This document shows, in pieces, positions 19,813-54,923 of a stretch of DNA of 54,923 nt (position 1 is its first letter; every line of letters begins with the position of its first letter). The stretch spans positions 1 through 54,923 of IMG/VR virus record IMGVR_UViG_3300046171_000008; one strand, given 5' to 3'. The translations under genes and the position numbers were made by a program. The notes below the pieces were generated by a model. It was not told the DNA's origin and did not search any database. It saw nothing but the letters and a program-made list of their open reading frames with translations. This stretch comes from a virus.

Positions 19813-19841
19813 TTGACAAATCAGTATGATTGTGGTATAAT
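19813..19841 (+). promoter_or_regulatory. Consensus sigma-70 promoter for the fibre cassette
   Basis: TTGACA at 19813-19818, a 17-base spacer and TATAAT at 19836-19841: a second perfect consensus promoter, placed inside the late arm just before the 19863 gene. It gives the following fibre genes an independent, probably strong, transcript. Confidence 0.88.
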
Positions 19842-46559: not shown

Positions 46560-46599
46560 CAGTTAAGTGCTTATATCATCGTCTTTTACGTGCTGTCAA
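46560..46599 (-). promoter_or_regulatory. Promoter-like sequence with CACTTAACTG site before primase
   Basis: On the minus strand TTGACA (46599-46594), an 18-base spacer and TATAAG (46575-46570), directly followed by CACTTAACTG (46569-46560), the same 10-mer found twice downstream of the rightward promoter at 410. The region has suspected indels, so the true spacer may be 17. It would drive primase and helicase. Confidence 0.55.
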
Positions 46600-47440
46600 G
46601 GCATTATTTGCACTGGCATATGTATTTTTCATGTAAGGCTTTACTGACTGTGGGTTAGCATGTCCTGTAACCGACATGATTTGTCCATATACCACACTCT
46701 GCATCGACCATCTCTGTCACCTGTGCGCCTAAGATCAGATCAGTCGTAGTTCATTAGGCAATCCAGCTTCATCCATCAGCTTACGGCATGTAAGGTAGTT
46801 TATACATCTGTATAGGGTCGTACTCACCCTGTATGGCTTGTGCGCGGTGCAACGTAGCTTTGAAAGCCAAAGTCTTGCTCTTGCTGTACTAGCATGTCGT
46901 ACAAGTCATCTTCAATAGGTAATTCTACCTGTGCATCTACGCTTAGATTGCTACATAGTACACGCTTCTTTTCAAAGTCAATAGCATCCCATGTCAACAG
47001 CGCATGTCACCTACTCGCTGGCACCATTCGTATGCCATGTGTAGCAATCAGACCAATGTTACGGTGCTAAAATCACTGTAGGCAGCGTCTAGGAGCTTCT
47101 TGACATCTCCCTCGCCACACAACCTTACGTGGCTGGTGGCGTCTTACGCACCGCTGCGAAGGGATTACATAAGCAGTGTTCCATGCGTAGCGCATAGTTA
47201 TATAGATATTCTAGCTAGCCAGACATGGATTGGCAGTGAATACCACGATCACACCACTGTCATACGCAGCTTAGCTTGCTTGGTGGACAGCTTCGTGCAA
47301 TCCACCTCCCAATGCTACACCATCAACAGTGTGTAGCCAGTAGCACCAAGGCAGTATTGATAATCGTTCTTAGTTTCTTCGCGTAACATCTTGTAATCAT
47401 GGGACAAATAATATTCATCCGCTACTTGATACAGCTTCAT
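46576..47440 (-). pseudogene. Tyrosine recombinase (integrase), frame broken many times
   Basis: No long frame exists here, but reading across frames reconstructs one integrase. It starts at ATG 47440 on the DUF932 stop (TAATG) with MKLYQVADEYYLSHDYKMLR. Then come DCTKLSTKQAKLRM, CQRVGDMR (box I Arg), TWDAIDFEKKRVLCSNLSVD and AQVELPIEDDLYDMLVQQEQ (one frame, about 46996-46824), LMDEAGLPNELRL, SDLRRTG, TEMVDAECG, and SVTGHANPQSVKPYMKNTY with ASANNALTARKRR before TGA at 46576. Around ten 1-2-base indels separate the blocks while motif residues stay intact, which suggests either very recent decay or poor consensus sequence. Confidence 0.82.
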
Positions 47441-51717: not shown

Positions 51718-52101
51718 TCATTCTCCCTGTACTTTATGCCCAATTGCATGGGCAGCTTGGTGGTAATATCGGGGTGCCTCTGCCCCATCAAAAAAGGCCT
51801 TCACGTCTATGCGATTGACAGTCTCCCAGATGAACTCCCTATAGTCCTCACTTAAATCAGCCAACTTGGCTTCCCACTCTGCCTGTGTCTCCACGTCTGT
51901 AGGTATTTCCTTGAGGCCAATACTGTTGACAGCAAAGGTAGCCATGACAAACGCCATTGCATCTGCTGGTCTGTCAACACCTGATACAAGGTATGTGTCA
52001 CCACCCTTGAACTTCCAATAGGCATTGCCACTGGCAAACCTGCCGTCCTCACTATGTGCGCCATAGTTTTCTAAAGTCTGCATGTGTACTGCGTAAGTCA
52101 T
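51718..52101 (-). CDS. Hypothetical protein, 127 aa
   Basis: AGGAG precedes ATG 52101, and repeat element A lies 16 bases further upstream, so this gene starts a regulated segment. TYAVHMQTLENYGAHSEDGR, WKFKGGDTYLVSGVDRPADA and a helical C-terminus (RYYHQAAHAIGHKVQGE). No known motif; a single soluble alpha/beta domain. Confidence 0.7.
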   Translation of the reverse strand: MTYAVHMQTLENYGAHSEDGRFASGNAYWKFKGGDTYLVSGVDRPADAMAFVMATFAVNSIGLKEIPTDVETQAEWEAKLADLSEDYREFIWETVNRIDVKAFFDGAEAPRYYHQAAHAIGHKVQGE

Positions 52102-52116: not shown

Positions 52117-52138
52117 AAATATTTACCAGTAAATTTTT
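52117..52138. promoter_or_regulatory. Palindromic element A
   Basis: One of five 22-bp copies with core ATTTAC-CA-GTAAAT, flanked by AAAT on the left and TTTT on the right. It lies 16 bases upstream of the 52101 start codon. Confidence 0.85.
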
Positions 52139-52865
52139 ATGCCGTAGCATAATGCTTAGAGCCAGTGCCATGCACCACAATGGCGATAGACTTGGCATTG
52201 ATGGTATTACCACTGCACAGCTTACACTTGTCGCACGTGGTACGCTTGCCAGCTTCCTCTGATGCAGGACAGGCAATCTCTTTGCCCTGCACAATATCAT
52301 TGACATTGGTGGTAACACGGAACGTGCGTTCACCCCTAGCCCATGCCTCTTGCGCTTCCTCTAGCGTGTCAGCACTACGCATTGTCAAGTCAGGCCGATA
52401 GTCTGCACCTTCAAGTGTAGCTTGGTGACTGTAGCCTGTACGACCTTCAGACTTAGATATGAGACTGTCCCATATGTAGCCATGCACAGCCGCAGGGTCA
52501 CCATAGCTGCCTAGTCGTATGACTAGCCCAGCACCTACGTCAGCAATAGCGTCATGCCCTTCTATGCGTCTGTAATTGCCCTTTTTGTATGACTTGAATA
52601 CAGACAGCACCATAAGCAACATGACATAGCATGATCGTTTCTTGGCACCACCACTGTCACCATCATGCGGCACACCACGATGAACACAGTTACCACACAC
52701 ACTGAAATCTTCACCCTGTCTGCTGGCAGTGATAGGGTCAATGTCAGACCGCATGATGATGGTTTGAAACATACCACCAGTTTTGCTGTTGCTAGACTTG
52801 GGGATACCAATAACCACAATGGGCTTGTTATCCAATAGTGATGGTCCTTCGTAAATGATATACAT
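52137..52865 (-). CDS. Cysteine-rich protein, DUF7227-like, 242 aa
   Basis: The start is set at ATG 52865 behind GGAG; the open frame to 52919 translates through palindromic element B and is not used. The protein has two Cys clusters, VCGNCVHRG with RSCYV (about 74-100) and CPASEEAGKRTTCDKCKLC near the end, which suggest zinc or iron-sulfur binding, and a central RLGSYGDPAAVHGYIWDSLI block. I recall similar early proteins in phages and plasmids (DUF7227, from memory). It might be a replication or host-takeover factor; unproven. Confidence 0.75.
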   Translation of the reverse strand: MYIIYEGPSLLDNKPIVVIGIPKSSNSKTGGMFQTIIMRSDIDPITASRQGEDFSVCGNCVHRGVPHDGDSGGAKKRSCYVMLLMVLSVFKSYKKGNYRRIEGHDAIADVGAGLVIRLGSYGDPAAVHGYIWDSLISKSEGRTGYSHQATLEGADYRPDLTMRSADTLEEAQEAWARGERTFRVTTNVNDIVQGKEIACPASEEAGKRTTCDKCKLCSGNTINAKSIAIVVHGTGSKHYATA

Positions 52866-52890
52866 TGTCTTGTCTCCGTGTTGGGGTGAT

Positions 52891-52912
52891 AAATATTTAC
52901 CAGTAAATTTTT
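52891..52912. promoter_or_regulatory. Palindromic element B
   Basis: Copy with core ATTTAC-CA-GTAAAT, 26 bases upstream of the 52865 start and about 45 bases downstream of the promoter at 52957-52985. It would lie in the mRNA leader. Confidence 0.85.
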
Positions 52913-52926
52913 CGCCCATGTTTTGC

Positions 52927-52966
52927 TGAAAATTTGAAGATTCTCAACCTTTATTTATACTAGCAA
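52927..52966. repeat. 40-bp leader repeat, copy 1
   Basis: Identical to 53273-53312 over 40 bases. It spans the -10 region and transcribed leader of the minus-strand promoter, upstream of element B. Confidence 0.9.
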
Positions 52967-52985
52967 AAACAATTGTTTGTGTCAA
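52957..52985 (-). promoter_or_regulatory. Early promoter, copy 1
   Basis: On the minus strand TTGACA (52985-52980), 17 bases, TAGTAT (52962-52957). It drives the 52865 gene and those beyond; the 40-bp leader repeat and palindromic element B follow. Confidence 0.82.
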
Positions 52986-52992
52986 TAGCCAC

Positions 52993-53217
52993 TCAAAGAG
53001 TTTCCAGCCACGCCTCAAAATCTGAAACAGAACGCTTCACACGTTCCTGCTCACACCACGCACGAATATCATCAGGTGCCTTGAATACACCCACGTTGTA
53101 GATATGTGTGTGACGCAACTCGCGCTCCCTGTTTTCATCAGGCGCATCAGGCCACGCACTGCGTAATCTTTTAGGTGCTTGTACGGTGGCACTGCCGTTA
53201 TCCCAAACCAGTTTCAT
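52993..53217 (-). CDS. Small hypothetical protein, 74 aa
   Basis: GGAG lies eight bases before ATG 53217; palindromic element C is just upstream. KLVWDNGSATVQAPKRLRSA, then HIYNVGVFKAPDDIRAWCEQ and a helical tail (SVSDFEAWLETL). One of the first genes expressed from the right end. Function unknown. Confidence 0.7.
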   Translation of the reverse strand: MKLVWDNGSATVQAPKRLRSAWPDAPDENRERELRHTHIYNVGVFKAPDDIRAWCEQERVKRSVSDFEAWLETL

Positions 53218-53240
53218 TTTGTAACTCCAATCCGTTGTCT

Positions 53241-53262
53241 AAATATTTACCAGTAAATTTTT
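53241..53262. promoter_or_regulatory. Palindromic element C
   Basis: Copy with core ATTTAC-CA-GTAAAT, 24 bases upstream of the 53217 start and downstream of the promoter at 53303-53331; same geometry as element B. Confidence 0.85.
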
Positions 53263-53272
53263 GTACCCACGT

Positions 53273-53312
53273 TGAAAATTTGAAGATTCTCAACCTTTAT
53301 TTATACTAGCAA
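53273..53312. repeat. 40-bp leader repeat, copy 2
   Basis: Identical to 52927-52966. With elements B/C and the promoters it shows that a whole promoter-leader-operator module was duplicated. Confidence 0.9.
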
Positions 53313-53331
53313 TTCCCCACATATATGTCAA
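53303..53331 (-). promoter_or_regulatory. Early promoter, copy 2
   Basis: On the minus strand TTGACA (53331-53326), 17 bases, TAGTAT (53308-53303). It drives the 53217 gene. The spacer bases differ from copy 1 while hexamers and leader are the same. The stretch 53263-53474 holds no convincing gene. Confidence 0.82.
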
Positions 53332-53384
53332 CCCTACCCCAAAAAAACCACCACCCCACCTCCGATAGTAATGACAGGCGGTCA

Positions 53385-53406
53385 AAATATTTACCAGTAA
53401 ATTTTT
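53385..53406. promoter_or_regulatory. Palindromic element D
   Basis: Copy with core ATTTAC-CA-GTAAAT, between the terminator of the 54266 gene and the promoter at 53303-53331, so it is upstream of a promoter rather than in a leader. Confidence 0.85.
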
Positions 53407-53474
53407 AGCCCACGCCCACAGCACCGCACCACCACCCCACCACCATAGGATAGTACCCGCCAAAATGCAGACAC

Positions 53475-53503
53475 AAAAAAACCCCCGCCATTTCTGGCAG
53501 GGG
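53475..53503 (-). terminator. Rho-independent terminator of the 54266 gene
   Basis: On the minus strand CCCCtGCCA (53503-53495) pairs with TGGCgGGGG (53490-53482) around the loop GAAA, followed by seven T. A strong intrinsic terminator 20 bases after the stop of the 53523-54266 gene. Confidence 0.9.
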
Positions 53504-53522
53504 CTTGTGGGTTGCGGTGGTG

Positions 53523-54266
53523 TTAGGCTGTTTTCTTGATTTTGCTTTCTTGCGCGGCTTGCCATGCTTTGGCGGTAATTCCTGCGGTTTTCAGAAATTC
53601 TTTTTCCATGGCATTTTGCAATGCTGCAAGAATGGTTTTTGCGGTAAATGCGTCAATATCGCCAGACTGAGCTTTTGCGATTGCAGCCGCATATTGGCCG
53701 ACAAATTCAGACGCTGGCGGGGTTGCGTTTTCTGGCGTGGCATCATTGCCGCCATTGTCGCTGTCGCTGTCGCCATTGTCGCTGTCGCTGTCGTTTTTAG
53801 GCGTATTCTTTTTGATAGCATTCGCAAGGGACCGGACGTTAAACAATTTCGCAATTTTCTTGGCGTTTTTTTCATCCGCATAATATGCCGCGCAACCATC
53901 TTTTGATACTTCCGCACCATCCTTAAATTGTTTGATAGCATTCAAAATGACAGCAACCCGCAAGTCATATAACGCGGTCATTCCTTCCTTATCCATCAAA
54001 CGCTTATACAGCGCGTTGTCTTTGGTGCCAGCTTTTCCTTTCGTATAGCTATGGCCAGAAATAGGGCATTTATAACCGCTCTTGCCTACGTCTACAGGAC
54101 GCAAGCTATCAGCATGGCATAGGGCTTCAGCATTCGCGATTGCGTTAAATTCGGCATATGGGTTAACCAAAAGGCCAGCATTTTGCGCGGCGCGGTTTTC
54201 AATTTCTGGTGCCACAAAATTTGTTTCAACAAAAGCAATGGCATTTTCAAGAGTGATAACAGACAT
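53523..54266 (-). CDS. Isolated right-end gene with DSDSDNG linker, 247 aa
   Basis: The start is set at ATG 54266 with AAGGAT upstream; the ATG at 54284 is less favoured. The N-terminal domain (1-165) has SVITLENAIAFVETNFVAPE, CPISGHSYTKGKAGTKDNAL and IAKLFNVRSLANAIKK. A low-complexity linker with DSDSDNG twice and TPENATPPAS follows, then a helical C-terminal domain (QYAAAIAKAQSGDIDAFTAK). It forms its own unit between a regulatory region and the terminator. Base composition looks more GC-rich than neighbours. No family recognised; likely an early host-interaction protein or acquired gene. Confidence 0.8.
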   Translation of the reverse strand: MSVITLENAIAFVETNFVAPEIENRAAQNAGLLVNPYAEFNAIANAEALCHADSLRPVDVGKSGYKCPISGHSYTKGKAGTKDNALYKRLMDKEGMTALYDLRVAVILNAIKQFKDGAEVSKDGCAAYYADEKNAKKIAKLFNVRSLANAIKKNTPKNDSDSDNGDSDSDNGGNDATPENATPPASEFVGQYAAAIAKAQSGDIDAFTAKTILAALQNAMEKEFLKTAGITAKAWQAAQESKIKKTA

Positions 54267-54312
54267 GGTATATATCCTTTTCAATTCTGGCGAATGGCCG
54301 CCAGTAGGCCTC

Positions 54313-54327
54313 CGATCATTTTGATCG
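54313..54327. promoter_or_regulatory. Dyad at the 54266 gene promoter
   Basis: CGATCA-ttt-TGATCG is a perfect inverted repeat placed just after a -10-like hexamer on the minus strand, where it would overlap the start of transcription. A repressor site is likely; no regulator gene was identified. Confidence 0.55.
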
Positions 54328-54334
54328 TTCTTTT

Positions 54335-54362
54335 AGTATACTGATTATTTCGCATGAATAAA
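54335..54362 (-). promoter_or_regulatory. Possible promoter of the 54266 gene
   Basis: Minus strand TTTATT (54362-54357), 16 bases, TATACT (54340-54335). The -10 is good and the -35 is poor, so an activator may be needed. The dyad at 54313-54327 overlaps the expected start site. Confidence 0.45.
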
Positions 54363-54383
54363 GCCCTAAAATGAATGGGGGCG

Positions 54384-54405
54384 AAATATTTACCAGTAAA
54401 TTTTT
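54384..54405. promoter_or_regulatory. Palindromic element E
   Basis: Fifth copy with core ATTTAC-CA-GTAAAT, 118 bases upstream of the 54266 start and just upstream of its possible promoter. Confidence 0.85.
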
Positions 54406-54674: not shown

Positions 54675-54923
54675 CACCGCCGTTATGTTATAACATTACA
54701 TTCTTACAGTCTGGCATTCATGTTGCGGGTGGATATCGTCAAAGCATAGGTGATGCCTTGCCGGTATTGCCGCGCATGGGGTGAAAATTGGCGGTTTTGC
54801 TAGGGTTTTGAGGCATTTTATTTGCTGGCAACGCCAGACATGCCTTTGATTTTTGCCAATTCTGGCAAATCTATCACGACATGCGACCCCGGCAGGGGCC
54901 ACACCCCCGTAGGTAGTACGTAT
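54675..54923. repeat. Terminal direct repeat, right copy (249 bp)
   Basis: Exact copy of bases 1-249. See the left copy. It follows the iteron-like region directly. Confidence 0.95.

Follow-up and report, generated by a model that had tools for sequence, protein, structure and literature searches.

In phage lambda, the HTH_3 proteins CI and Cro are associated with dyads clustered at two divergent promoters, and their specificity varies by immunity type. Mycobacteriophages of cluster A (L5/Bxb1 clade) contain stoperators, which occur in many copies, lie mostly away from promoters and vary in motif with the repressor (PMC6550527). These sites are asymmetric, are bound by a monomer (PMC9283540) and number up to ~30 per genome. 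In the Bacillus prophage SPbeta, the master repressor MrpR binds a repeated short intergenic element, SPBRE (PMC10516654).

HMO-2011-type phages have been described in two papers (PMC9038755, PMC6918029) and count among the dominant and widespread phage groups of the ocean (PMC9038755). Many of them have integrases, and integration has been shown experimentally for one, CRP-3 (PMC6918029); the words 'repressor' and 'promoter' are absent from the texts of both papers. The sequence analysed here, referred to as the window, is the entire 54,923-nt stretch of IMG/VR record IMGVR_UViG_3300046171_000008. It represents an HMO-2011-type marine phage, with a DNA polymerase that shares 78% identity with its counterpart in SAR116 phage HMO-2011 and 68% with those in the Roseobacter phages CRP-345 and CRP-1. 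The window has an exact 249-bp direct terminal repeat (1-249 and 54675-54923). Because these ends are identical and the related contigs G002 and G003 read through the window's end junction, the record is a complete genome, in which the early arm is preceded by the window's start. A DNA similarity search of the early region against annotated phages yielded no match. Five palindromes in this early region are probably operators, dispersed along it, for a regulator that the phage itself encodes; this regulator, most likely a repressor, would be made by the first early gene.

The five-copy palindrome in the early arm

The 22-mer AAATATTTACCAGTAAATTTTT is present without mismatches at 52117, 52891, 53241, 53385 and 54384 (elements A to E), all within 52117-54405. 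It is absent elsewhere in the window at up to 3 mismatches (0.00 expected) and absent from shuffled sequences, which confirms the count and the confinement given in the preliminary description. The core ATTTACNNGTAAAT has five exact matches in the window, compared with ~3 expected even at 2 mismatches, and no further match in the genome record. The dyad arms of the window elements are perfect and do not form an asymmetric 13-bp site of the stoperator type.

The five elements are regarded as candidate operators and carry no strand, whereas the genes, promoters, leader repeats and terminator around them are all on the minus strand. Element E (54384..54405) lies ~118 nt before the gene for a 247-aa protein (53523..54266), the candidate cognate regulator, which we call the first-gene product (FGP). 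This gene is followed by an intrinsic terminator with a 12-bp stem and a T-run (53479..53506) and is bracketed by elements E and D, the latter (53385..53406) being located 3' of the regulator gene and 5' of promoter P_C. P_C (53303..53331) is a TTGACA-17-TAGTAT promoter with an extended -10 (TG) that scores 10/12. Element C (53241..53262) is positioned ~45 nt past its -10 box, in the transcribed leader, and precedes a 74-aa gene of no assigned function (52993..53217). A second promoter of the same sequence, extended TG and score, P_B (52957..52985), is followed ~49 nt past its -10 box by element B (52891..52912) and then by gene B (52137..52865), a conserved early gene that encodes 242 aa and matches phrog_2554 (E 8e-64) but has no assigned function. 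The intergenic gap that follows gene B is 35 nt wide and holds element A (52117..52138), which is situated at the gene's stop codon; the gene behind this element (51718..52101; 127 aa) likewise has no assigned function. Thus, the two promoters proposed earlier are present, at 53331-53303 and 52985-52957, and elements A, B and C do lie shortly before start codons, with 15, 25 and 23 nt to the ATGs at 52101, 52865 and 53217, respectively.

The leader that had been described as an identical 40-bp sequence before B and C is indeed a 100% identical 40-nt repeat (copy B, 52927..52966; copy C, 53273..53312). However, the repeat includes the -10 hexamer, and the identical leader proper is therefore ~30 nt long; it contains a small hairpin in the predicted RNA fold. 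The identity had also been taken to indicate selection. In the close relative G004, the leader at C has drifted away from that at B, so the identity in the window is a sign of recent duplication more than of proven selection. Between the window and its relatives, the palindrome itself is conserved at 22/22 positions in A-D and at 20/22 in E, where the variation among four phages is confined to the central CA/TG (element D is 22/22 in the window, G003 and G004). Element E of G004 differs from the window's element in the central two bases alone, with the centre flipped and the flanks nearly the same. By contrast, the flanks 3' of elements A and C are unrelated between the window and G004 (28/60 and 23/60 matches), and the genes directly behind both elements differ from those of the window, including the 74-aa gene behind C, so that the element forms the boundary.

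Dyad types and first-gene products in related phages

Relatives were gathered via the conserved gene-B protein or via a conserved 73-aa anchor protein encoded beyond the early promoter region; the search with the latter gave 549 confirmed relatives, of which a set of 80 was used. Across IMG/VR, only four other contigs contain the exact 22-mer, namely the close relatives G002, G003 and G004 and a distant ~59-kb phage, G001. The ATTTAC dyad is absent from all gene-B-protein relatives except G004 (L081) and from all anchor-protein relatives except G002 and G003. The proposed check, a search for the identical dyad in HMO-2011-type genomes, therefore fails literally, as most close relatives are without it. 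Many of these relatives have another multi-copy dyad in the equivalent places, which is the more informative result; a dyad of their own is present in more than half of the early regions examined. We distinguished about 20 types, including ATTTAC-2-GTAAAT, TTTTAC-2-GTAAAA, GTAATC-3-GATTAC, TGTCAC-3-GTGACA, GTCACT-1-AGTGAC, GTAACG-1-CGTTAC, TGTCAA-3-TTGACA, TGTCTG-5-CAGACA, TGTAGC-4-GCTACA, CCCGA-2-TCGGG, GTCCAA-2-TTGGAC, GTCCGA-2-TCGGAC, AGTCCG-4-CGGACT and others. In each phage with a module of this kind, a single multi-copy dyad is present; the dyads are 12-17 bp long and occur in 3-11 copies concentrated in the early arm. The copies are near-identical inside one phage and switch together between phages, even next to 80%-identical neighbours. 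No dyad at three or more copies appeared in 40 block-shuffled sequences.

Near the anchor gene, a perfect TTGACA-17-TATAAT promoter directed toward the right arm was found at 410-438, and four to five ACACTTAANTG-like copies lie past it at 456-567, before the 73-aa anchor gene. Similar repeats occupy the same place in nine inspected related loci, with or without an FGP, and constitute a second conserved repeat system. A second exact TTGACA-17-TATAAT sequence is located in the structural arm (19813-19841, plus strand), at the end of a 597-aa ORF.

In the relatives, a gene for a protein of ~175-260 aa, the FGP, comes after the first dyad, and the next dyad often lies directly past the stop codon of this gene. 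In two groups of phages, the GTCC and CCCGA tribes, a dyad lies within the FGP gene and encodes S-N/D-V-G or P-D-V-G-E in the linker of the protein. The FGPs have a common architecture, in which an N-terminal part is joined to a short C-terminal part by a linker of low complexity that is often acidic; in the FGP of the window, the N-domain is followed by a D/S-rich linker (~154-183) and a helical C-terminal part. Counterparts in annotated phages are HMO-2011 gp74, CRP-345 gp01 and CRP-1 gp01, which are mutually homologous and annotated as hypothetical proteins. In these three phages, each phage's own dyad (GTCCG-4-CGGAC and GTCCAA-2-TTGGAC) flanks or invades the first early gene.

Sequence searches of Pfam, PHROG, NCBIfam and the PDB returned nothing meaningful for the FGP, and no HTH repressor was found among about 25 window proteins tested. 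The only IMG/VR relatives of the window FGP are in G002, G003 and G004, the same three close relatives that carry the 22-mer. A looser iterative profile search seemed to join nearly all FGPs into a single superfamily. With proper decoys, however, the link between the window FGP and the large tribe became borderline (E 0.006-0.008; best decoy 0.03), and we therefore claim no such superfamily. A profile-profile comparison of two FGP alignments was colinear but not significant. The AlphaFold model of the window FGP (pLDDT 46) is too poor for a fold test. As the profile link is borderline and the model poor, the putative DNA-binding role of the window FGP rests on synteny, architecture and co-occurrence. 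The AF2 model of the FGP of locus L145 is all-helical; its best PDB fold match has an E-value of 2.2, with none below 2, and in BFVD it has one strong match, S4S2E1, and one weaker match, an uncharacterised phage protein.

The distance between operator consensus sequences was correlated with the distance between FGPs (Mantel r 0.75, p 5e-4), whereas the correlation with the distance between the neighbouring anchor proteins was not significant (r 0.07). The partial correlation was 0.56 for the FGP given gene B and 0.19 for gene B given the FGP. Two examples illustrate this point: G005 and L175 have the common dyad GTAATC-3-GATTAC and FGPs that are 53% identical, and G005 and the window have gene B products that are 86% identical, yet neither operator nor FGP in common. 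Among 52 early regions, 31 contain both operator and FGP and 21 contain neither; no region has an FGP alone, and none has an operator alone, a zero that is partly circular because position behind the operator was what defined the FGP. The absence of FGPs without operators and the 21 double absences are less circular. In five further phages, the isolates CRP-2, CRP-3, CRP-207, CRP-212 and HTVC033P, neither operator nor FGP was found in the first 9 kb.

A finer correspondence was detected within the GTCC tribe, where the fifth base of the operator is A or G and two columns of the N-terminal domain split the two classes perfectly. Column 110 is T versus S/K and column 117 is K/R versus D/A/Q/N; T110 with K/R117 accompanies GTCCA in 10/10 cases, and S or K110 with a non-basic residue at 117 accompanies GTCCG in 14/14. 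Both columns change with the operator base in three independent contrasts, one of them between G016 and G019, which have 87% identical FGPs, and another between G018 and G015/G017. Three columns (38, 110 and 117) are shared by the contrasts, compared with 0.6 expected (P 0.018), with T110->S in all three left aside. In the predicted helix 109-124, residues 110 and 117 would be two helical turns apart, as expected of a recognition helix.

The same ATTTAC-2-GTAAAT core also occurs in four copies, some of them as ATTTACTAGTAAAT, in the distant phage G001 and likewise in G035, and no FGP was detected there despite the common core. This may represent convergence or the site of an unrelated regulator. 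Dispersed ATTTACTRGTAAAT dyads were observed between own genes in G001 (2092, 56698, 57811 and 59337; L018, L020) and in L033.

The integrase gene is nearly universal in these phages, those without FGP included, and on contigs of sufficient length it adjoins most FGP modules. The query was an approximate 34-residue N-terminal stretch, so identities and absences are indicative only, and absences may stem from truncated contigs. We had considered the module as a marker of integrase-bearing phages and dropped this idea in view of the near-universality of the integrase. In the window, the integrase gene (46585-47425, minus strand) is split across three reading frames, reflecting either a pseudogene or local sequencing errors; it is open in G004, G005, G008, HMO-2011 and the CRP phages. 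Several FGP-less loci (L137, L138, L144, L176, L184 and others) retain the integrase and are without dispersed dyads, and the anchor protein of L137 is identical to that of the window.

Possible functions of the dyads

From the positions of the sites, the exchange of the dyads for others in relatives and the way they covary with the FGP, we infer DNA binding, repression, roadblock action and, as the likeliest reason for the diversification, immunity. The FGP would probably bind the dyad as a dimer. Bound at E and D, on either side of its gene, it would limit its own transcription; bound at A, in the gap that follows a stop codon, or at B and C, ~40 nt past the -10 box, it would act as a roadblock to RNA polymerase. 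The likeliest purpose of such a system would be the silencing of early lytic genes and type-specific superinfection immunity, with operator and regulator diversifying together as the phages split into immunity types. The placement of sites across these phages is compatible with this model. Among 247 sites, 53% are intergenic compared with 19% of the same spans, as judged by crude gene calling, and some lie directly at stop codons, like element A of the window. A good promoter (at least 10/12) is near 23 sites, and 16 of these, with differing dyads, start 38-49 nt past the -10 box. A roadblock is favoured because sites ~40 nt past the -10 box lie in the leader and not in the promoter. The earlier suggestion that a phage regulator acts on the earliest genes through this operator is thus supported, the covarying FGP being the candidate. 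A wider proposal, that FGPs are a new repressor family acting as roadblocks on dispersed palindromes, with some 20 or more types exchanged as fixed-position cassettes and conferring heteroimmunity in a marine phage group reported without repressors, is advanced tentatively, with the balance tilting slightly against it.

The main rival explanation is that the FGP is a Cro-like autorepressor, which shuts off early genes in the lytic cycle and plays no part in lysogeny or immunity. The FGP gene opens the early lytic arm and is transcribed in the same direction, and some relatives that bear an integrase or are proven to be lysogenic have no FGP (PMC6918029). Because CRP-3 integrates yet shows neither FGP nor dyads in the part examined, lysogeny in the wider group does not depend on an FGP. 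Moreover, a GTCC-tribe profile search of bacterial and archaeal genomes found no prophage copy. However, many specificities in one phage group are typical of immunity and are not required of a lytic shut-off, and integrase genes stand alongside most FGP modules on sufficiently long contigs. We regard a purely lytic role as unlikely, though it is a serious competitor of the immunity repressor that we favour.

Far less probable is an RNA element, in which a leader hairpin would control translation, decay or antitermination in a boxB-like manner. The location of B and C in transcribed leaders and of A in the 35-nt gap before the ribosome-binding sequence would suit such an element, as would the predominance of one orientation of the asymmetric centre (194 to 31 sites, or 86% one way), an orientation read from the centre only, since the arms are symmetric. 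When the folding of the leaders with B, C and A is predicted, however, the element does not form a hairpin, and an apparent excess of G-U pairs in the arms was traced to the fixed flank of the CCCGA tribe, apart from which arm mismatches are not G-U-like. Both centre orientations occur, as in element E of G004, where the centre is flipped with little change of the flanks, and odd-length dyads with a 1-nt centre suit a DNA-bound dimer better. RNA-level control, raised in the preliminary description, is therefore disfavoured.

In several proteins of the partition, replication or packaging type, a linker connects an N-terminal binding domain to a C-terminal part, an organization that the FGP resembles. 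Nevertheless, it is just as improbable that the FGP binds the dyads as non-transcriptional sites (partition, replication origin or packaging signals), as the dyads are spread across 2-10 kb, lie where genes start or end and recur at similar distances from promoters, unlike clustered iterons or centromeres. The least probable explanation is that the phage exploits a host transcription factor, for which the dyads would be operators. This idea, also raised earlier, is compatible with the common core in the unrelated phages G001 and G035, but the dyad follows a phage protein and is entirely different even between closely related phages whose gene B is 80-86% identical.

Comparison with known systems

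Operator types paired with a candidate regulator would allow immunity groups to be proposed from metagenomic sequence. HMO-2011 gp74, CRP-345 gp01 and CRP-1 gp01, together with their dyads, are ready pairs for binding and immunity tests in culturable hosts. Furthermore, the covariation of two residues with one base provides an entry to the recognition code of a protein without known relatives.

Judging from sequences and structural models, the dyad/FGP system may work like the stoperators of the L5 clade and resembles SPBRE/MrpR, although the defining features that were tested differ from those of both. It is similar to lambda in having dyad sites with type-differing specificity and dissimilar in the dispersal of the sites and in the lack of an HTH repressor among the window proteins tested. 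MrpR has a tyrosine-recombinase fold, whereas the L145 FGP is all-helical in its model and finds its best PDB match only at the E-value given above. The sites differ from stoperators in being palindromes restricted to the early arm, in fewer copies, and in their association with a protein for which the searches of Pfam, PHROG, NCBIfam and PDB sequences gave no recognised family. Stoperators have a predominant orientation relative to transcription; for the dyads, an orientation (194 to 31) can be read from the asymmetric centre only, as the arms are symmetric. The resemblance to stoperators lies in the multiple copies (five in the window), in the frequent intergenic location of the 247 sites and in the covariation of the motif with the FGP, and the placement of sites ~40 nt past the -10 box would fit the stopping of elongation.
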